From Bifidobacterium lemurum (lineage in GTDB: Bacteria; Actinomycetota; Actinomycetes; Actinomycetales; Bifidobacteriaceae), in NCBI RefSeq assembly GCF_014898175.1, contig NZ_CP062948.1:682001-746000 (forward strand): 64,000 bases of DNA, in the 5' to 3' direction. The notes under the pieces are model-generated. The model made no database searches. It worked only from the letters and a program-made list of their open reading frames with translations, and was not told where the DNA came from. The first letter of the stretch is position 1; the number at the start of each line of letters is the position of its first letter. This document shows, piece after piece, positions 20,394 through 36,294 of this stretch. The translations under genes were made by a program, and so were the position numbers.

Positions 20394-21575
20394 TCACCGC
20401 GGCCAGCGGGAGGCGTGGCGGATCTGACGCCAGGGGGCGGTGCGGCGGCGGTTGAACACCACGGCGAAGATCAGGCCGGGAACGGCGACGATGGCCACGG
20501 CCCACACCACCAGAGTGCGCACGTCGGGCGGCGCGTCCTGCGGATCCGGAATCGGCATCGGAATCTCCTGCCGCACGCCCGACACGAGCAGCCGCTGCGT
20601 GTTCACGCCGTATGGCGTGCACGTCATCAGCGTGACGCGGTCCTCCCCCTCGACGACCTTGAGTTGGCTCGTGTCGTCGGGATCGATCACGGTGATGCGG
20701 TCCACGCGGTAGCCCAGCGTCTCCCCCATCACCTCGATGTAGAAGAAGTCCCCCACCTCCATCTCGTCGAGCCGCGTGAACATCAGCGCCTCGACCAGGC
20801 CGCGATGCCCGGTCAGCACCGCGTGCGTGTTCTCGCCGCCCACCGGCAGGCTCGAACCGTACAGATGCCCCGCGCCGGACGCCAGCGCGCTTTCCGATGT
20901 GCCGTGGTAGATCGGCAGGTCCACGGAGATGCTGGGGATGAGGATGGAGCCCATCACCCCGCCGCCCGTATCCAGCAGGCCTTGGTATTCCTCGTCTTTC
21001 GACGCCTCCGAATCCTCTTCGTTCGAGGCGCGCGAGCCGCCCTGCACCTGCGCGAACGGGTCGACGGCCTCGCCCATCACCGGCTGCCCCGACTGGGCGA
21101 GCCGCTCGTTGTATGCGCGCGCCGCCGCCAGTGATTCCTCCGCTTGCGGATACGGCCATTCCGCCACGGTCTGCGCCGCCTGCGACGCCGTGGATTCCAG
21201 CTGACGGTCCGACCGGTATTGCAGAACCAGCGGATATCCGCCGATGCATAGCGCCGCCGCCAGCAGCACCGCCACCACCGCCCGCATCGCCAGCAGTTGG
21301 CGCGCCATGTTCCGCCGTCTGCGCATCAGATCCGCGACGTCGGTGGCTTCCTCGAATGGGATGGGAGCCCATTGGGAGGGCGTATCCGACTGGGGTAGCC
21401 GTTCTAGTTGGTCCGACTGGAGGGGCTGAGCTGCCGGCTGGGATGGCTGTTGCGCCGGGCGTATGTGATGCGCCCGGTACGGCCGACGTATCCGGAGCGA
21501 TAAAGGCGACAGGGACGATAAAAACGGCAGGGACCGCAAGGAATGTAAGGATGGCAGGAATGGCAGGCGTTTCAT
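20394..21575 (-). CDS. class C (pilin-polymerising) sortase
   Basis: 393 residues. A long N-terminus with a Leu/Ser/Pro low-complexity opening precedes a membrane segment at about 97-115, then the sortase domain: the catalytic His in LTGHRG, the Cys in LMTCTPYGVN and the Arg in TQRLLVSGVR. A second C-terminal membrane segment (VVWAVAIVAVPGLIFAVVF) is typical of class C enzymes that link pilins through LPxTG signals. It lies in the same cluster as two LPLTG pilins. The ATG at 21575 is 4 nt after the preceding gene; a later start closer to the membrane segment is also possible. Confidence 0.9.
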   Translation of the reverse strand: MKRLPFLPSLHSLRSLPFLSSLSPLSLRIRRPYRAHHIRPAQQPSQPAAQPLQSDQLERLPQSDTPSQWAPIPFEEATDVADLMRRRRNMARQLLAMRAVVAVLLAAALCIGGYPLVLQYRSDRQLESTASQAAQTVAEWPYPQAEESLAAARAYNERLAQSGQPVMGEAVDPFAQVQGGSRASNEEDSEASKDEEYQGLLDTGGGVMGSILIPSISVDLPIYHGTSESALASGAGHLYGSSLPVGGENTHAVLTGHRGLVEALMFTRLDEMEVGDFFYIEVMGETLGYRVDRITVIDPDDTSQLKVVEGEDRVTLMTCTPYGVNTQRLLVSGVRQEIPMPIPDPQDAPPDVRTLVVWAVAIVAVPGLIFAVVFNRRRTAPWRQIRHASRWPR

Positions 21576-21579
21576 GAGT

Positions 21580-22023
21580 TCACTGCTGCTGTTGCTGCCG
21601 CAGTCCGTCCGCCTCGGCGGTGAGCCGCTTGACGGTTTCGCGCAGCTTGGTGTTTTCCTGTTGCAGGACTTGGGTGTAGTTCGACTGCTGCATCAGCAGT
21701 TGCAGCAGCATGCGATTGTCATCGACGGGGTCGCGGCGCATGTTGAAGATTTCGTCGCCTTCGTCGCCGTCTTCGCCGTCGGACAGATGGTCGAGCTGCT
21801 TCCAGCGCGCGATGCACCGTTCGATACGCTTATGTCCGATGATTTGGGGGCTTAGGCCCGCGTCGCGGAAGATTTTGGAGGGACGCTCCCCTTGCGCGTA
21901 CCGGCGCATGCATTCTTTTTGGAACTGCGATGAATAATAGATATGCGAGCCGTTCACACTTTTCACGGCCGGCAGCATGCGAAGATATTCGAGCTGTTCA
22001 GGGGTGAATGAAGTGTCTGTCAT
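21580..22023 (-). CDS. helix-turn-helix and coiled-coil protein of the pilus cluster
   Basis: 147 residues. The first half contains CMRRYAQGERPSKIFRDAGL and RIERCIARWK, a transposase-like helix-turn-helix. The C-terminal third is a coiled coil (LQQENTKLRETVKRLTAEAD) ending in a run of Gln. It lies between the pilin terminator and the sortase and is probably co-transcribed with the sortase. The function is unknown; a regulatory role in the pilus cluster is an inference from position. Confidence 0.7.
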   Translation of the reverse strand: MTDTSFTPEQLEYLRMLPAVKSVNGSHIYYSSQFQKECMRRYAQGERPSKIFRDAGLSPQIIGHKRIERCIARWKQLDHLSDGEDGDEGDEIFNMRRDPVDDNRMLLQLLMQQSNYTQVLQQENTKLRETVKRLTAEADGLRQQQQQ

Positions 22024-22207: not shown

Positions 22208-23713
22208 TCAGGCCATCATGGCCTTGGCGGTCTTGCGGGACTTCGCGTAGACCGTGACGGCGGCGCCCGCGACGAGCAGCGCGATCACAGTGAACAGCGC
22301 CGTGCCGGCCGCACCGGTCAACGGCAGCTGGGTGATGGACTTGACGTTCTTGACCGTCTTGTCCGTGGTGTTAACCAGACCGAAGGTGTCCGCACCGAAA
22401 GCGATTGTGCCATTGGCATAGATGGTCACGGTGAAGCTCGGCTTCACGGACTGCAGGAAGCCTTCGGGCACCTCGGTTTCTTCAACGGTGTATTCACCGG
22501 CAGCCAAACCTTCGAAAACAACCTTACCGGTGTCTTGAGCGGAGGTAAATGACGTCGCATCGGCGACATTGGTAACCTCTGACCAAGCCTTAGTGTCTTC
22601 ATCTTGCTTGAGGTACTTATTACCAGACCTGATGACGAATTTGGCACCAGCCAAAGCGCCACCATCAGCGTTCTGCTTGGTGAAGTCGAAGGTGAAGGTC
22701 TTCACAGTCACTTTACCTTCACCGGACGTCTTGCCATCATGCTTGGCGATAACACTGTTTGTCACGCCAGAGTTGTCCGCCTTGATAGCATCCTTAGTGA
22801 CAGTGGCATCATAGGTGACAGTAATATCGGCACCAATCGTCAGTTTGGTCACATCATTGAAGGCCACGGTCAACTTGCCATTATCAACAGTCGCTGTGTA
22901 GTCAGTGAAGGAATTAACGCCGGATACAGCAACGGTCACCGAAGACTGATCAATGGTCAACCCCGCGGAAGGAGTATCCTCAATCTGCCAGTCATAAGTG
23001 TTAAAGCCAGTGTAATTCGGCACAGCGGAGGTCACTTTGAACCTAACAGTGGAGCCAACCAAAGCACTCGGATCATCAACTTTGTGACCCTCAGCGTCAA
23101 TTACTTCTTTTACCGGGGTCGGAATCGTGGTCGGCTTGGCGACAGCGGTACCCAAAGTGGTGTCATTCAGCTTGTCGAAGACCCCACCTTGAGGATTCGC
23201 AATCTTGGTACCCACCAGAATCGGAGCACCCGTGGAGTCGGTCACGAGATACCAGCCCTCAGTCGGCACATCCAGAACGGCCTGAGTATCAGTATCGCGA
23301 GTAGTGACTGTAGTCGGAGGTTCAGGCTTATCAGTTGCGGTGGCCAATGTCTCAGCGAACTTACGAAGCTCTTCACCATCCATAGTCTGGTTCAGGGTTG
23401 CGATATACGCCAACTCATTACCGGTGTACTCAGCAGGAACGTCACCGACAGCTGCCTTCGCAGCGTCAGCGATTGTTGGATTCCAGGCCGTATTCTGAGT
23501 GAAGTCCACAGAAGTGGCTTTCGTGCCATCATTCACCACATTCGTGTACGTGCCCAGCAGATACGCGGTGAATGTACGATTCGCGACATCGCCGGTGATG
23601 GTGATCGTCGAAGCGTCACCCTCGATTGCATTGGCGGTGGTGACGCCTAGGGCGAGACCACCGAGCATCGTCGCGGCGGCGGCGATACCCGCAAAAAGTT
23701 TCCTCATCTTCAT
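22208..23713 (-). CDS. LPLTG-anchored major pilin subunit
   Basis: 501 residues. The signal peptide runs to about TTANA, giving a mature start near residue 31. The body has beta-rich pilin domains, and the segment TIPTPVKEV may hold the Lys used for cross-linking. A SpaA/Cna-B-like domain carries the E-box YTVEETEVPEGF. The C-terminus has LPLTG, a hydrophobic stretch and a basic tail. GGAAGGG lies just before the ATG at 23713. It is downstream of the large pilin and upstream of the sortase, a standard sortase-dependent pilus operon. Confidence 0.9.
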   Translation of the reverse strand: MKMRKLFAGIAAAATMLGGLALGVTTANAIEGDASTITITGDVANRTFTAYLLGTYTNVVNDGTKATSVDFTQNTAWNPTIADAAKAAVGDVPAEYTGNELAYIATLNQTMDGEELRKFAETLATATDKPEPPTTVTTRDTDTQAVLDVPTEGWYLVTDSTGAPILVGTKIANPQGGVFDKLNDTTLGTAVAKPTTIPTPVKEVIDAEGHKVDDPSALVGSTVRFKVTSAVPNYTGFNTYDWQIEDTPSAGLTIDQSSVTVAVSGVNSFTDYTATVDNGKLTVAFNDVTKLTIGADITVTYDATVTKDAIKADNSGVTNSVIAKHDGKTSGEGKVTVKTFTFDFTKQNADGGALAGAKFVIRSGNKYLKQDEDTKAWSEVTNVADATSFTSAQDTGKVVFEGLAAGEYTVEETEVPEGFLQSVKPSFTVTIYANGTIAFGADTFGLVNTTDKTVKNVKSITQLPLTGAAGTALFTVIALLVAGAAVTVYAKSRKTAKAMMA

Positions 23714-23875
23714 GAGAACCCTTCCTTTCGTTTTCTTCTTGATACTTTTCTTGCAATCGCGGAGGGGGAGAAGGAAACACATCCTCCGCGATCCGCAAAT
23801 CTGTGGGTGGTGTTGCGGAAGCGACCGTCATCGGCCGCGTTCCGCAACATCGTTGGGCTCCTTATGGAGCGGGGG

Positions 23876-26800
23876 CTACTGCACCACGTGACGGTTGCGC
23901 CACCGGTTCACGCTCAGCCAGCCGAGCACACCGATACCGGCGATGCACAGGGCGAGCCATGTGTAGTTCATCGAGGACGGACCACCAGTCAACGGCAACG
24001 AAGACACCGCCACATAGTGATTGGTGAATGCAGCGACCTTGTCCTTCACATCTGAGGAAGGATCGAGCTTTTCGCCATTGAAGTCCTTGGTCTTCTGGAC
24101 CGAATCCACCGATGCGGACCATGTGCCGTCTGAGCCTTTGGACAATTTGACCGTCACCGTATATTCGGATTGGTCATATTTCCAACCTGATGGCGGAGAT
24201 GAAGCTCCTTCTTCTGCGACCGTGAAAGTGTATGTCACTGCGTCGCCGCTAGTCGGCACTTTGAACTTCAATGCCCCAAATGATGCTTCCTTGGAGGTAC
24301 CAACTTGCTGCAAATCAGTCTTCGCGATCTGAATCTGCGCCTTTTTATCCGTCAATCCGCTGATAATGTTCTCGGCGGCATTCTCGTCAGCAGTCAGCGT
24401 GAAGCTGAAGTCCCCGGCTGCCGCAGCACCCTTCACGGTCTTGCTGACCTTGATGGAGTCTCCCGCCAAGGTAACGCCTTCATGCTCATTGGTCACCTGC
24501 ACCATCACCGAACCGGTAACGATGGATGACAACACCTGATCAGATTCCAGAGGAGTACGCGATTCCGCCTCCGTTGCACCGCTCGGGCGTCCGGCCTGAT
24601 ACGTTCGGATAATCGGCCAATCCGTATCCGAAATGAACATGTAATCACCACTCTCAAAGCGAGCACCATACTGCAGAGCCGCGCCGGAGCCGCCATACGT
24701 GAGTTCCAACGAATCGGCTGCAGTGTTTGAGACCTTAAGTTTGCCGTCAATGGCTTTCGCAGTGTTGAGGGCAGTCTTGAAGCCTGCAGACGGCGCCGTC
24801 AAAGCCGCATTACATTTAGAAGCGTTGCACGACGCGTCAAGCGCCACGTCAGTCGCCGAGCCAGCAACAGATTCTACATAACGCAACGTGTCATCAAACG
24901 AACCAGTGGAACCAAACGTGGACATGGTCGCTACCAGCTGTCCAACGCCTCGCACGACTTTGATACCATCGTCAGCTTCACCAGCGTCTGCGAAGATGCC
25001 ATCGTCCGACACCACAATCTTGCTTACATTGGATGTTTTCTGATATCCAGCAGGGGCTTCCATCTCGACAAGGTAGTAGACGCCGTTTGTCAATGCTGTG
25101 CCACTGATACCTTGCGCCTTAGACTTAATCTGGTCAGCACTCTTTATAGCGAACATCGCCGCGCCCTTAAAAGAAGGCGTTGCAGGATCGTTATCGTCTA
25201 TCCAGCTGTTCGTCGTCATCACCTGCCCGCCAGCAGGATTAACAGGATTATTTTCAGCATCCTTCTTCACGGTTACCGTGTCGTTGCCGCTCACCTCGAC
25301 TTGATCTGCCTTATACAGACCAAAAGTCGCGCCGGCAACAGGATCGCCGTTCTCGTCCACCTTCTGCACGAACAGTTCGTTCTTGATGTTGGGCACGTTG
25401 AGGCGAGAGGCGAACGTACGTTCGAAGCCACTGTCAGTAACGCGGTATGTGTTATCCGTGGACACATCCTTTGGGTCTTTCGCAGTGGAGTAGTACACTG
25501 ACACAACGTATCTGGCAGCTGACTTTTTATCGTTATCCAGCATGTAGTAGTAGTCACCGGCATATCCCGGCAACTCTTCGATTGTCGCCTTCCATTTGCC
25601 TCCCTCATCTTTAGTGAACTTATGAGAACTGGATTTGGATTGGATGGCTTCAACAACGCCTTCCATGGCCGTGCCCTGCGTGATGCTCCACCCATCAGCA
25701 GTGCTTCCGGTGACCGCATGCCAAGCATTTTCATCTGTTGCGGTTGTATTACCCACGCGTCGCAGCACCACGGCATACATCGTTCCCGTTCCTGTTGTCG
25801 TATCCAATGCGCTGTCGGTCGTGCAAGTATTCCCGGTGTAACAGTCCGGAATTTGATTCACACCACTGAATGTGGATGGAGCGGTGATCGACTCCTTGCT
25901 TCGCGCTATGGCACCGGTATCCCACACTGAACTATCCGACTCATACGTCGATGGCCAAGAAACCAGTGTGCCGGAAGGCGTTCCAGAAGCGCTCGGACGT
26001 ATATATTTCAGTTTCATGTAATTCAACATGCGACTGTAACCGTCAGGAGCCTTGGTCTCCTTTAACGCATAGTACGTGCTGTTATTGTGGTTGTCCGAAG
26101 TGTCGTTGCTCCAGAGTTTATCAAAATTGATAATGGACTGATCTTCCACCGAAGTCAGCACCAGTTTCCCATCGACGCTGCTTCCCGTCGCCAGTCGCTT
26201 GCTTGAAGTAGGCAAGTCAGTGGCGTTCTTGAAATTGTCCTCAGTGTAACCATCGCTAAGTGGGACCTGATACAGTTCAAACTCCGCACCGTCTAGTGAC
26301 TCACCATTCTGATCAACCTTGATGATTTCGCTGCTCATCGGCTGCACCAGGTTGTACTGCAGCTTCATATTGGAGTTGCCGGCGCCACGTTCCAGATAGA
26401 AGAAGTCCAGCGTGTGATAGGTGCCGTCAGCGAAGGTGTCGCCCTTGAAAACGCCCGACACCTTGGCATCATCAAATGCTCTCTTGATAGTCGTAGTTTT
26501 TTTGTAACCAGAGATGCCTGACTGAGGATCGTAAGAGGCACCGCTTTGCACCGTGACTTGACCCGTCGCAAAGTTGATGCTGAGCTCCAAACGATCATGC
26601 AGACCACCTGCGTCACCAACAAGTACGCCATCGATGAACACCCACACATCGTCATCCCCGGAGAACTCAAAGGTCATGTCCTGATTCTCGTTGACCTTGC
26701 CATTATTGGGCTGCACAAACGTGGACTGTGAATGGACACCGAAGAAATGATTCAGAACCTCATTGTCTTGGCTTACCTTGCTCTGCAAAGTTCCGTTATT

Positions 26801-27436
26801 TTCCGTAAACACATCACTAGCTGTGTTAAAGGGATAGAACTGTCCATTCTGGACATCAGCCACAGAAATGCTGTTTGCAGTCACTGCGCTCGCATTATAA
26901 AGAACGAAACTGTTGCTGTTCTCATCGTATGAGGCAAAATTCTTTTGGCTGTCGTATTCGTAATAGCCATTGTCATTAAGCTGGAAAAGCCCACCGACAT
27001 TCAAATGAGATTCTTTGTAAGCCCCGGAATCCGCATTGAACAAATAATCAAGGCTTTGGCGGTTCGTAGTTTCAGACGTATCTGTCGACAGAGTATTGTC
27101 TCCGGTGCTAGCAGTTCCCGTGTAATAATTTCCACTTGCCACCACCGGATAGCCGTTTTCAAGCGTGTTCTCCACAATGCCGGTAAAGGCACCACCGTTC
27201 ACATTGGCAACCATTTGATTATTGCGTTTAACCGCCGTTCTTCCCGTCCAAGCGTTTATACTGCCGCCAGTGATTCCAGGACGATTGCCTAATTCCGCTC
27301 CAATACTTCCCGGGGTGAATTTCAAATACTTTCCGTCATTGATGCCAGCACTTTTAAGTTCCTCACCTTTCTTGATGCTGTCATTAACACCAGTCTGTGA
27401 CTCCAGCCAATAATCGAACAGGTCCAAGGTGCTACC
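23876..27436 (-). pseudogene. large LPLTG pilin/adhesin, 3' fragment cut by an insertion sequence
   Basis: About 1185 codons remain. The N-terminal part has a fibro-slime domain: DDDVWVFIDGVLVGDAGGLH and HTLDFFYLERGAGNSNMKL. SpaA-like domains with E-box-type sequences (YYALKETKAPDGY, YYLVEMEAPAGY) follow. The C-terminus has LPLTGG, a membrane segment and RWRNRH. Proteins of this design form the pilus tip or minor subunit and may bind host or mucus ligands. The first 120 codons, including the signal peptide, are on the other side of the insertion sequence, so this fragment cannot be exported from its own start. Confidence 0.88.
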
Positions 27437-28912
27437 CGAGGTTCGTCATTAATAAGTGAGCGCGTAATCGTTGTTCGTTTGTCGTAATGGGTGAGCGCGA
27501 AACGGTGCCTGCGATCTATTTGTCGTTTTGTCCGGCGTCGGCGCGCATGCGTTCGATCGCCTTTCCCAAGTATCCCATGTCCAGGCCGGCGCGGCGGGCC
27601 ATCGCCTCGGTGCGGTCCCGGCTGACGCGTTCGAGTTCGTCCTGGATGACGGCGATCTCGCGGTTGAGGCGGGCGGGGTTGGTGGCGGCGATGATCCCCT
27701 CGATGCGGCGGCGGGCGTCGTCGACGACGTATCCGCCGCCCCCGGCGGCGCGGTCGGCGGCGTCGTGCTCCAGCACGCGCGCCCACGGGGTGCGGGGCTC
27801 GTCGTACACGGTCTTCCTGCGCCCGTCGCGCCCCTGGTCGACGCGCACGGGCTTGCGGGTGGGCGTGAACAGGTTCAGCAGCACGTAGGTCTTCGCCCAC
27901 AGCCGGTTGAGCAGCTCGCGCTGCTGCGCGGTGTCGTAGCGCCAGTGGAACGCGTATTTCCTGACGACGTGGTTGTTGCGCGACTCGACGGTGGCCTGGT
28001 CGTTCTTCCTGTACGGGCGGCTGCGGGTCTGTTCGATGTCCTGTTCGAGCAGCCAGTCGACGAGCTCGTCGTTGATGAACTCGACGCCGTTGTCGGAGTC
28101 GAAGCAGGTGACGGGAAACGGGAAGAGCGGCAGGGCGGTGGCGACCGCTGCCTTGATGTTGGATTTGGCATTGTTGCGGGCGGTGACGTTCACGGTCCAG
28201 TTCGTCGCGTAGTCCACCATCGTCAGGGTGCGGGCGAACTCGCCCTTCATGCTGGGCCCGCAGTGGGCCACGGTGTCTGCCTCGGCCAGGCCGGGAACGC
28301 GGATTGTCTCGTCGGTGCATTTGCGGATCCTGATCGAGTTGCGCATGTGCTCCGCGGCCGGCCGGGTCAGCGACGCGCCCTTCGGCATGGCGGCCTGTTT
28401 GAGCGGTCTGAGCCGCCGGTCGATGGTCGACGGACTCATCGCCAGCACCTGGTCCAGCGCGTCGCCGTCGATGCCGTCGAGCTCGCCGTTCGCCAGGAGC
28501 GCGGGAATCCACTGGTCGAACATGGCCTTCATGTACGGGCCGCACGGCATGCCCATGAGCAGCCACAGGCGCTCCAGCAGCCGCTGCGCGCCCGCGTCGT
28601 ACTTCGGCCGCCTGCCCCGCGCCGCGCCTTTCACGGGTTTCTCCCTCTCCGCCTGCGTGAGCAGCCGCCGGGCGGTGGACCTGCCCATCCCGACGGCCTC
28701 GAGGCGGTCGAGGATCTCGCCCTTCTGTTTCTTGTCGCCCTTGGCGTACTCCGCCTTGAACCTGTTCGTCAGCCGTTTTCTCGTGGCCATGTCCAGTCTG
28801 CCTTCCATAAGGCAAGCATCCCCGCGAACGACGCGGGCCGCGCGGGATTTCGCGCTCATTATTTATGACGAACGGAATCCAATTTCGCGCTCAAACATTA
28901 CGACGAACGTCG
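27437..28912 (-). mobile_element. 1476-bp insertion sequence inside the large pilin gene
   Basis: The ends are imperfect inverted repeats: CGAGGTTCGTCATTAAT at the left, and CGACGTTCGTCGTAAT read inward from the right. Each end carries two copies of a motif like GTTCGTCRT-N5-GAGCGCG. It is flanked by a 5-bp duplication, CTACC at 27432-27436 and 28913-28917. It carries one transposase gene. Joining the flanks over one CTACC restores a continuous pilin reading frame (protein PAGSTLDLFDYW). Confidence 0.88.
27516..28790 (-). CDS. DDE (rve-fold) transposase
   Basis: About 424 residues. The N-terminal helix-turn-helix region (about residues 1-100) is followed by an integrase-type core. The acidic triad is an Asp in the EADTVAHCG strand, the Asp of FDSDNGVEF and the Glu of NDQATVESRNN, with exactly 35 residues between the last two. 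The single-gene organisation, with no IstB-like ATPase, fits IS481-type or related elements better than IS21; I am not certain of the family. The ATG at 28790 has GGAAGG upstream. No frameshift is seen, so the element may be active. Confidence 0.88.
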   Translation of the reverse strand: MATRKRLTNRFKAEYAKGDKKQKGEILDRLEAVGMGRSTARRLLTQAEREKPVKGAARGRRPKYDAGAQRLLERLWLLMGMPCGPYMKAMFDQWIPALLANGELDGIDGDALDQVLAMSPSTIDRRLRPLKQAAMPKGASLTRPAAEHMRNSIRIRKCTDETIRVPGLAEADTVAHCGPSMKGEFARTLTMVDYATNWTVNVTARNNAKSNIKAAVATALPLFPFPVTCFDSDNGVEFINDELVDWLLEQDIEQTRSRPYRKNDQATVESRNNHVVRKYAFHWRYDTAQQRELLNRLWAKTYVLLNLFTPTRKPVRVDQGRDGRRKTVYDEPRTPWARVLEHDAADRAAGGGGYVVDDARRRIEGIIAATNPARLNREIAVIQDELERVSRDRTEAMARRAGLDMGYLGKAIERMRADAGQNDK

Positions 28913-29275
28913 CTACCGGCAGGGGTCAGACCTTTGACTGTATAATTCGAGTATGCGGCGGTGCTGATGCCGTCGTCGGCATTTTGGGCGGCGATATCGT
29001 CGGTTTGGTCGTCGATGTTTTGGGCGTCCGTGTTTTGGGTATCGACGTCCGTGCCTTGCGAAGCGTCCATGCTTTGCGTGGTGTCTGTGCTCTGATCGGA
29101 GTCGTCGGTGTTCTGCACCAGCTGCACGCTTTGGGAGGCATCGGCATCGCCCTGGGAAGAGGGATCGGCGATGGCGATGTTCGTCACCGCAAGCGACCCC
29201 AGCGTCGCGACGGCAACTGTTGCGGCGATCAGCCTAAATAGGGAGCCCCCCCCCCCGTTTCGGAGTATTCAACAT
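28913..29275 (-). pseudogene. large pilin, 5' fragment with signal peptide, out of frame at a G tract
   Basis: The ATG at 29275-29273 has GAGGTGG upstream. Codons 1-7 read MLNTPKR, then the G tract (29246-29256) follows. With 11 G the frame meets TAG at 29236-29234. With 10 G it continues into LFRLIAATVAVATLGSLAV and then IAIADPSS, a normal signal peptide, and on to VKGLTPAGS at the insertion site. A Ser/Thr/Asp/Gln-rich linker (about residues 38-100) follows the signal. The gene therefore carries two lesions in this sequence. Confidence 0.85.
29246..29256. repeat. homopolymeric tract C11 (G11 in the pilin gene)
   Basis: Eleven consecutive C on the plus strand, inside codons 7-10 of the large pilin gene. 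Tracts of this kind slip during replication; G-tract slippage is an established way of switching sortase-dependent pili in Bifidobacterium breve. Eleven is the OFF length and ten would be ON. Confidence 0.9.
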
Positions 29276-29507
29276 TTTCCACCTCTGTTTTTGTCTCTTC
29301 GTTTCAGTCAACCGCAAAGAATACACCCATCATTCTTCCCTTTACGGTTTCCATCACCTCGCCGCCCGCGGAATCTCAGGGGACACGCCGAAAAAGCTTA
29401 CCCCCTTCATAGAGCTTTTTCATTGGAATTTCAGCCTATAACAACAAAAATAGAGGTTTTGACGATACGCCCCCTGTCCCCCGTTTATGCTTTGGAGTCT
29501 TGGGGAT

Positions 29508-36284: not shown

Positions 36285-36294
36285 CCCCCCCCCC
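36285..36294. repeat. homopolymeric C10 tract upstream of the surface-protein gene
   Basis: Ten C on the plus strand, about 97 bp before the ATG at 36188. The rest of the gap 36189-36614 has AT-rich promoter-like sequence (for example CATATTGTGCAATAAGG near 36230-36247 read on the minus strand) but no box I can assign with confidence. Confidence 0.75.

Follow-up and report, generated by a model that had tools for sequence, protein, structure and literature searches.

A run of eleven G lies close to the start of a large pilin gene in Bifidobacterium lemurum, and the question it raises is whether the tract acts as a switch for the pilus or whether something else has disabled the gene. An initial annotation of the window, by which we mean the whole 64,000-nucleotide stretch of DNA that was analysed, proposed that the tract holds the pilin in the OFF frame and that it switches by replication slippage. 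The reading preferred here is that the G11 tract places the leader of the large pilin out of frame, and that it is probably a replication-slippage switch of the kind found in B. breve, now overridden by an insertion sequence. The features at the start of the gene are the following.

29280..29285, minus strand: Shine-Dalgarno-like GAGGTG, 5' of the leader ATG (from sequence)
29234..29275, minus strand: leader reading frame as assembled, 13 residues, MLNTPKRGGGLPI, then TAG (from sequence)
29246..29256, minus strand: G11 tract, in the signal-peptide n-region (from sequence, frame reading and shuffles)
28913..29244, minus strand: pilin frame between the tract and the insertion, with the signal-peptide core and the start of the mature protein

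The eleven G are present on the minus strand where they had been reported, and begin 19 bases after the leader ATG (29275-29273). The tract had been placed after codon 7; the codon is the right one, but the tract starts inside it, and its first two G complete CGG. With 11 G the frame from the ATG reads MLNTPKRGGGLPI and is ended, as originally described, by the TAG at 29236-29234. The GAGGTG upstream is presumably a Shine-Dalgarno (SD) site, judged against the SD consensus. Only four codons of the pilin frame are open 5' of the tract, none of them a start, and 3' of the tract the frame continues as SLFRLIAATVAVATLGSLAVTNIAIADP, a stretch that resembles a signal-peptide core. Between the tract and the insertion there are four in-frame starts, all past the signal-peptide core and with SD matches of only 3 or 4 bases. 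The arrangement is that of a slippage switch, in that the first gene is divided by the G tract into an SD-led leader and a remainder with a Sec signal, and the second frame lacks a competent start, its best SD match being 4 bases. A scan upstream of the leader found no sigma-70-type promoter. An alternative GTG located 26 bases 5' of the tract meets a stop in the window. In B. eulemuris, the relative considered below, the corresponding GTG would enter the pilin frame; it was set aside because it overlaps the SD site and passed no SD test itself.

Tracts of this length are rare by chance, with a mean of 0.03 G11 expected per shuffled window and at least one G11 in 2 of 100 shuffles. The genome, a single contig of 2,965,103 bases, contains 20 separate G runs of at least 9, and five of at least 11. 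Since long G runs occur elsewhere in the genome, it is the position of the tract, rather than its existence, that is telling.

Three further features, again on the minus strand, make up the rest of the pilus cluster.

23876..27431, minus strand: rest of the large pilin, with fibro-slime, SpaA and FctA domains and an LPLTG signal at 23998-23984
22208..23782, minus strand: major pilin, 524 aa, intact, with an LPLTG signal
20394..21575, minus strand: class C (pilus) sortase, 393 aa, intact

In one pilus cluster, LPXTG pilins thus occur with a sortase of their own, which is the genetic setting looked for in a slippage switch of this type. The major pilin scores below the cut-off of the NCBIfam SpaH/EbpB model, and a pilin search across named genomes returned no confirmed relative. 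Between the major pilin and the sortase (window 21580-22023) lies a frame of 147 aa that contains an HTH_Tnp_2 domain, in a region that is 88% identical to B. eulemuris.

The integrity of the large pilin gene is broken a second time, by an insertion sequence and the duplication that flanks it.

27437..28912, minus strand: insertion sequence, 1476 bp, with ends CGACGTTCGTC / GACGAACCTCG (from sequence)
27516..28859, minus strand: transposase with an integrase core (rve; from a domain match)
28913..28917, minus strand: target duplication GGTAG, copy 1 (from sequence)
27432..27436, minus strand: target duplication GGTAG, copy 2 (from sequence)

The transposase reaches 40 bits against the curated IS481 model, whose cut-off is 224, and is assigned only to the general rve domain. 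The element begins 321 bp beyond the leader stop. From the ATG to the stop of the pilin the span is 5400 bases; removal of the 1476-bp element and the 5-bp duplication leaves 3919, and removal of one G leaves 3918 bp, or 1306 codons including the stop, a figure that the initial annotation had given and that recomputation confirms. The pilin frame is open on either side of the insertion, over about 1300 codons, and no other stop or frame break occurs in it once the tract and the insertion are allowed for. The longest reading from the ATG with 10, 11 or 12 G in silico is nevertheless 127 residues, against 1305 for the whole protein. The expectation that with 10 G the frame would reach a complete signal peptide and then run on through the gene is borne out for the signal peptide, but the insertion blocks the remainder, with 127 residues as the maximum. 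The view that the pilin is kept OFF by the tract has accordingly to be corrected, as the insertion also truncates the product, at 10, 11 and 12 G alike. A change in tract length does not by itself restore a full-length pilin, and slippage at the tract alone cannot at present turn the pilin on. Because the insertion caps the product at 127 residues, the gene of the window is a disabled copy, with no working switch in the assembled genome. The element would make the OFF state lasting unless it were precisely excised.

Full identical copies of the element number three in the window's genome and nine in B. eulemuris, and all 12 sites were examined. The lesions in the window appear to be recent, since the flanking pilin frames are still open and the sister copies of the element show no difference from it. 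Large-pilin genes are the site of four of the 12 copies, which lie inside them or a short way 5'; besides that of the window, these are in B. eulemuris (G031).

C1:1355780-1357255: element copy inside a pilin that has its own G10 tract at 1357952-1357961, out of frame
C1:1435393-1436868: element copy inside another LPXTG pilin, which has no signal peptide and already looks truncated
C1:2104962-2106437: element copy 77 bp 5' of the leader, in the orthologue of the window's pilin gene

The chance of at least four of 12 copies at large-pilin genes is 5e-6 to 3e-4, a calculation that assumes a share of 1 to 3% of the genome for large-pilin genes, which is our own estimate. Because the gene class was picked after the matches had been seen, and because tolerance lies outside the calculation, the bias is treated as a lead only. 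A fixed target site was considered and rejected, as the 12 duplications, of 4-5 bases, are all different but for one TTCC pair; since they differ, tolerance or selection is likelier than a target site.

The system that the tract most resembles is that of B. breve, for which the accessible text of Penno et al. 2022 (PMC9187656) describes slippage in pilus genes. In strain UCC2003, Bbr_0113 and Bbr_1889 belong, like the gene of the window, to class C-type pilus clusters in which the first gene is split by 10-11 G. The annotated G11 of Bbr_0113 begins 21 bases after the start, and at G10 the leader is fused with the second frame; a short leader therefore precedes the tract in both organisms (21 versus 19 bases), and in both G11 is one base out. 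The likeness that the initial annotation had drawn to the B. breve switch is upheld, with layout, place and length all in agreement with this account. In culture the Bbr_0113 tract was 37% G11, 59% G12 and 3% G10, whereas in mouse faeces about 30% was G10 (PMC9187656). The same text gives further tracts of 8-13 G in the pilus clusters of five species, and those of B. longum, B. dentium, B. pseudocatenulatum and B. bifidum have 8-13 G near the start of the first gene, as here, in the portions available of PMC9187656, PMC10757668 and PMC12104195. The lineage of the window is absent from the species in the available text of Table 1 of Penno et al. Slippage was measured in B. breve, whereas in the window the system is known from sequence alone and the pilin is also split by the insertion sequence. 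It is from the B. breve likeness that we infer replication slippage at the window's tract. A G gained or lost during replication would shift the pilin into frame or out of it, and expression of the downstream genes would be lowered by a leader that is out of frame. The placement of the tract in the signal-peptide n-region may reflect a tolerance there for the gain or loss of glycines.

Slippage can also control pili from a promoter. In the fimbriae of H. influenzae, named in the available text of PMC9187656, it acts through a tract in the promoter spacer, whereas the tract of the window lies in a coding leader; B. breve is reported in the same text to have tracts in promoter spacers as well. 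Non-coding G runs at other pilus clusters include a G10 at 1166435 in the window's genome and, in B. eulemuris, G11 at 1677279, G13 at 1375133 and G12 at 2114117. A further non-coding G10 in B. eulemuris, at 250901, is placed between TTGACA and TACTGT. Two G10 runs that look non-coding, at window 36285-36294 (minus strand) and at G000:C1:911850 (L005), both have GTTGCAACGATCACTAGAA upstream and are followed by the TA-rich hexamers TATTTT and TACTCT, and these are possibly promoter-spacer tracts. Elsewhere in the genome, a G10 at G000:C1:342057 (L001) lies a few codons past a lipoprotein-like signal and its frame continues for about 1 kb, and a very long surface protein has an in-frame G9 within its signal peptide, at G000:C1:2025574 (L014).

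An alternative to a switch overtaken by an insertion is a dead pseudogene, in which the frame was lost by ordinary decay, the tract has ceased to switch and the insertion came after. Decay would suit a gene with an insertion inside it, and a second B. eulemuris pilin combines an out-of-frame tract with the same element; still, about 1300 codons have passed without a further stop or frame break, the identical element copies point to recent loss, and the tract sits exactly at the position described in the available text of Penno et al. 2022, so that we regard this explanation as unlikely. The tract might instead have been miscounted in assembly, its true main length being in frame and the insertion alone disabling the gene. 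The accessible text of Penno et al. 2022 does caution about database tract lengths, and the annotated G11 of B. breve was not the commonest length (PMC9187656). The assembled tract of the window itself bears no sign of error, and a miscount seems improbable.

Long G runs could also favour slippage by RNA polymerase, which would yield some in-frame messages at any DNA length and no strict switch. Within the available text of PMC9187656 the term transcriptional slippage occurs twice, in one case in a reference title, but transcription in B. breve is stated to drop past the leader stop, and pili to be formed only in in-frame derivatives, which also bore a new promoter; there is little to recommend this explanation for the window. 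Against the preferred reading, that of a slippage switch overridden by the element, count the absence of such tracts from most of the homologues surveyed, an out-of-frame share no higher than chance, the failure to find a sigma-70-type promoter upstream and the possibility that the G11 was miscounted in assembly.

Large-pilin homologues were surveyed from 50 loci (47 together with L006, L008 and L009). Frames of fewer than 500 codons inside the locus and frames without a preceding stop were dropped, which left 44 rows, none of them from L155-L161, L006 or L008, and a total of 45 with the window. A tract was scored where the beginning of the pilin frame contained a run of at least 7 G. Such tracts are found in nine of the 45, namely seven rows, the window and L051, which was masked by an element and read separately; the other 36 are without one, several of these rows having no clear 5' end. 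Eight of the nine tracts are out of frame, with two tracts of only 8 G and with the frame of L054 hinging on the start codon chosen, and this share does not exceed the two in three given by chance (P = 0.14). The single in-frame tract is a G10 in a paralogue at 1519841 in the window's own genome.

When 112 genomes of the genus were searched for GGAG, ATG and G9 closely spaced in this order, 120 overlapping matches were obtained in 40 genomes, as against 12 matches in 10 genomes for the reversed pattern. The tract of the window is not among the matches because its SD site differs from GGAG. From thirty of the matching loci, 25 leaders passed the filter; in 17 of the 25, as a raw share, a hydrophobic stretch (an 11-residue Kyte-Doolittle mean of at least 1.9) follows within 45 residues of the tract. 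These leaders belong to mixed genes, and 19 of the 25 read out of frame, no significant excess over chance (P = 0.22). Tract leaders at L104, L106, L083 and L090 stand ahead of genes that lack a signal peptide and in some cases have Ig-like ends; these may be prophage tail genes. In B. eulemuris a solute-binding lipoprotein gene (G031:C1:1843286, L107) has a leader with an out-of-frame G10.

The named relatives of the pilin, and the same-genus set of the genome, likewise place it in Bifidobacterium. The nearest relative found at the pilin locus is that of B. eulemuris, whose pilin is record P0002 over 1278/1278 residues. Identity is 91.6% in the DNA next to the locus (5,096 aligned columns) and 54-59% in the pilin protein. 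The orthologue shares the leader and has a G11 that is likewise out of frame, with an indel beside the tract. Record P0002 (BEUL_2227) starts at a GTG 3' of the tract and lacks a signal peptide; the start of another public record, P0003, resembles it. A homologue starting downstream of the tract had been named in advance as an observation that would count against a switch, and P0002 is recorded in just this way, but we judge its start to be an annotation artefact because the signal peptide is lost by it. As the record starts past the tract, the switch is hidden in the annotation. That the pilin truly starts 3' of an untranslated tract, as this record has it, is scarcely credible, given that starts past the tract lose the signal peptide, that the in-frame starts before the insertion have such short SD matches, and that most tract-free homologues with a printed start run from SD site to start to hydrophobic segment.

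The largest set of such tracts is that of B. callitrichidarum TRI 5 (G016, C23 and C27; L099-L103), with 21 tract leaders on two contigs. The genes have a common leader, a tract of G9-G11 and a signal-like start, the hydrophobic character of which was judged by eye. Nineteen of the 20 decidable tracts read out of frame, more than the two in three of chance (P = 0.003), in a draft genome whose tract lengths may be off; the only one in frame is a G11 in L099, and one further tract lies at a contig end. A sorting signal is present in 18 of 19 proteins examined, as an MPTTG or MPSTG end, with one VPSSG. Sequence patches are common to many pairs of the proteins, and five of seven tested gave Pfam matches (up to 0.1) that include Ig-like, Flg_new and RCC1 domains, some of them weak and under the cut-off. 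These genes look like a phase-variable surface-protein repertoire. Titles and abstract openings in the literature searched held nothing on the window's locus or on the B. callitrichidarum tract genes, which form the best lead and the part most deserving of follow-up.

A broader proposal, put forward tentatively, is that the tract of the window is a copy of a portable bifidobacterial cassette, composed of SD site, ATG, a few codons, G tract and signal-peptide core, that would bring sortase-anchored proteins under slippage control. In B. callitrichidarum the cassette would have multiplied to 21 genes, one of them in frame, giving a commensal something like antigen variation, and in the lineage of the window one insertion sequence would repeatedly make a lasting OFF state in the same gene class.

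This locus would extend the pilus switch of B. breve, a mechanism already known in the genus, to another of its lineages. The locus also demonstrates that a tract read alone can mislead, the gene being out of action for a second and less reversible reason. The comparison suggests that the tract occupies a rule-like place, the n-region of the signal peptide, and that one species, B. callitrichidarum, has many surface genes under such tracts. If many surface genes are controlled in this way, phase variation in a commensal would become directly testable by sequencing.
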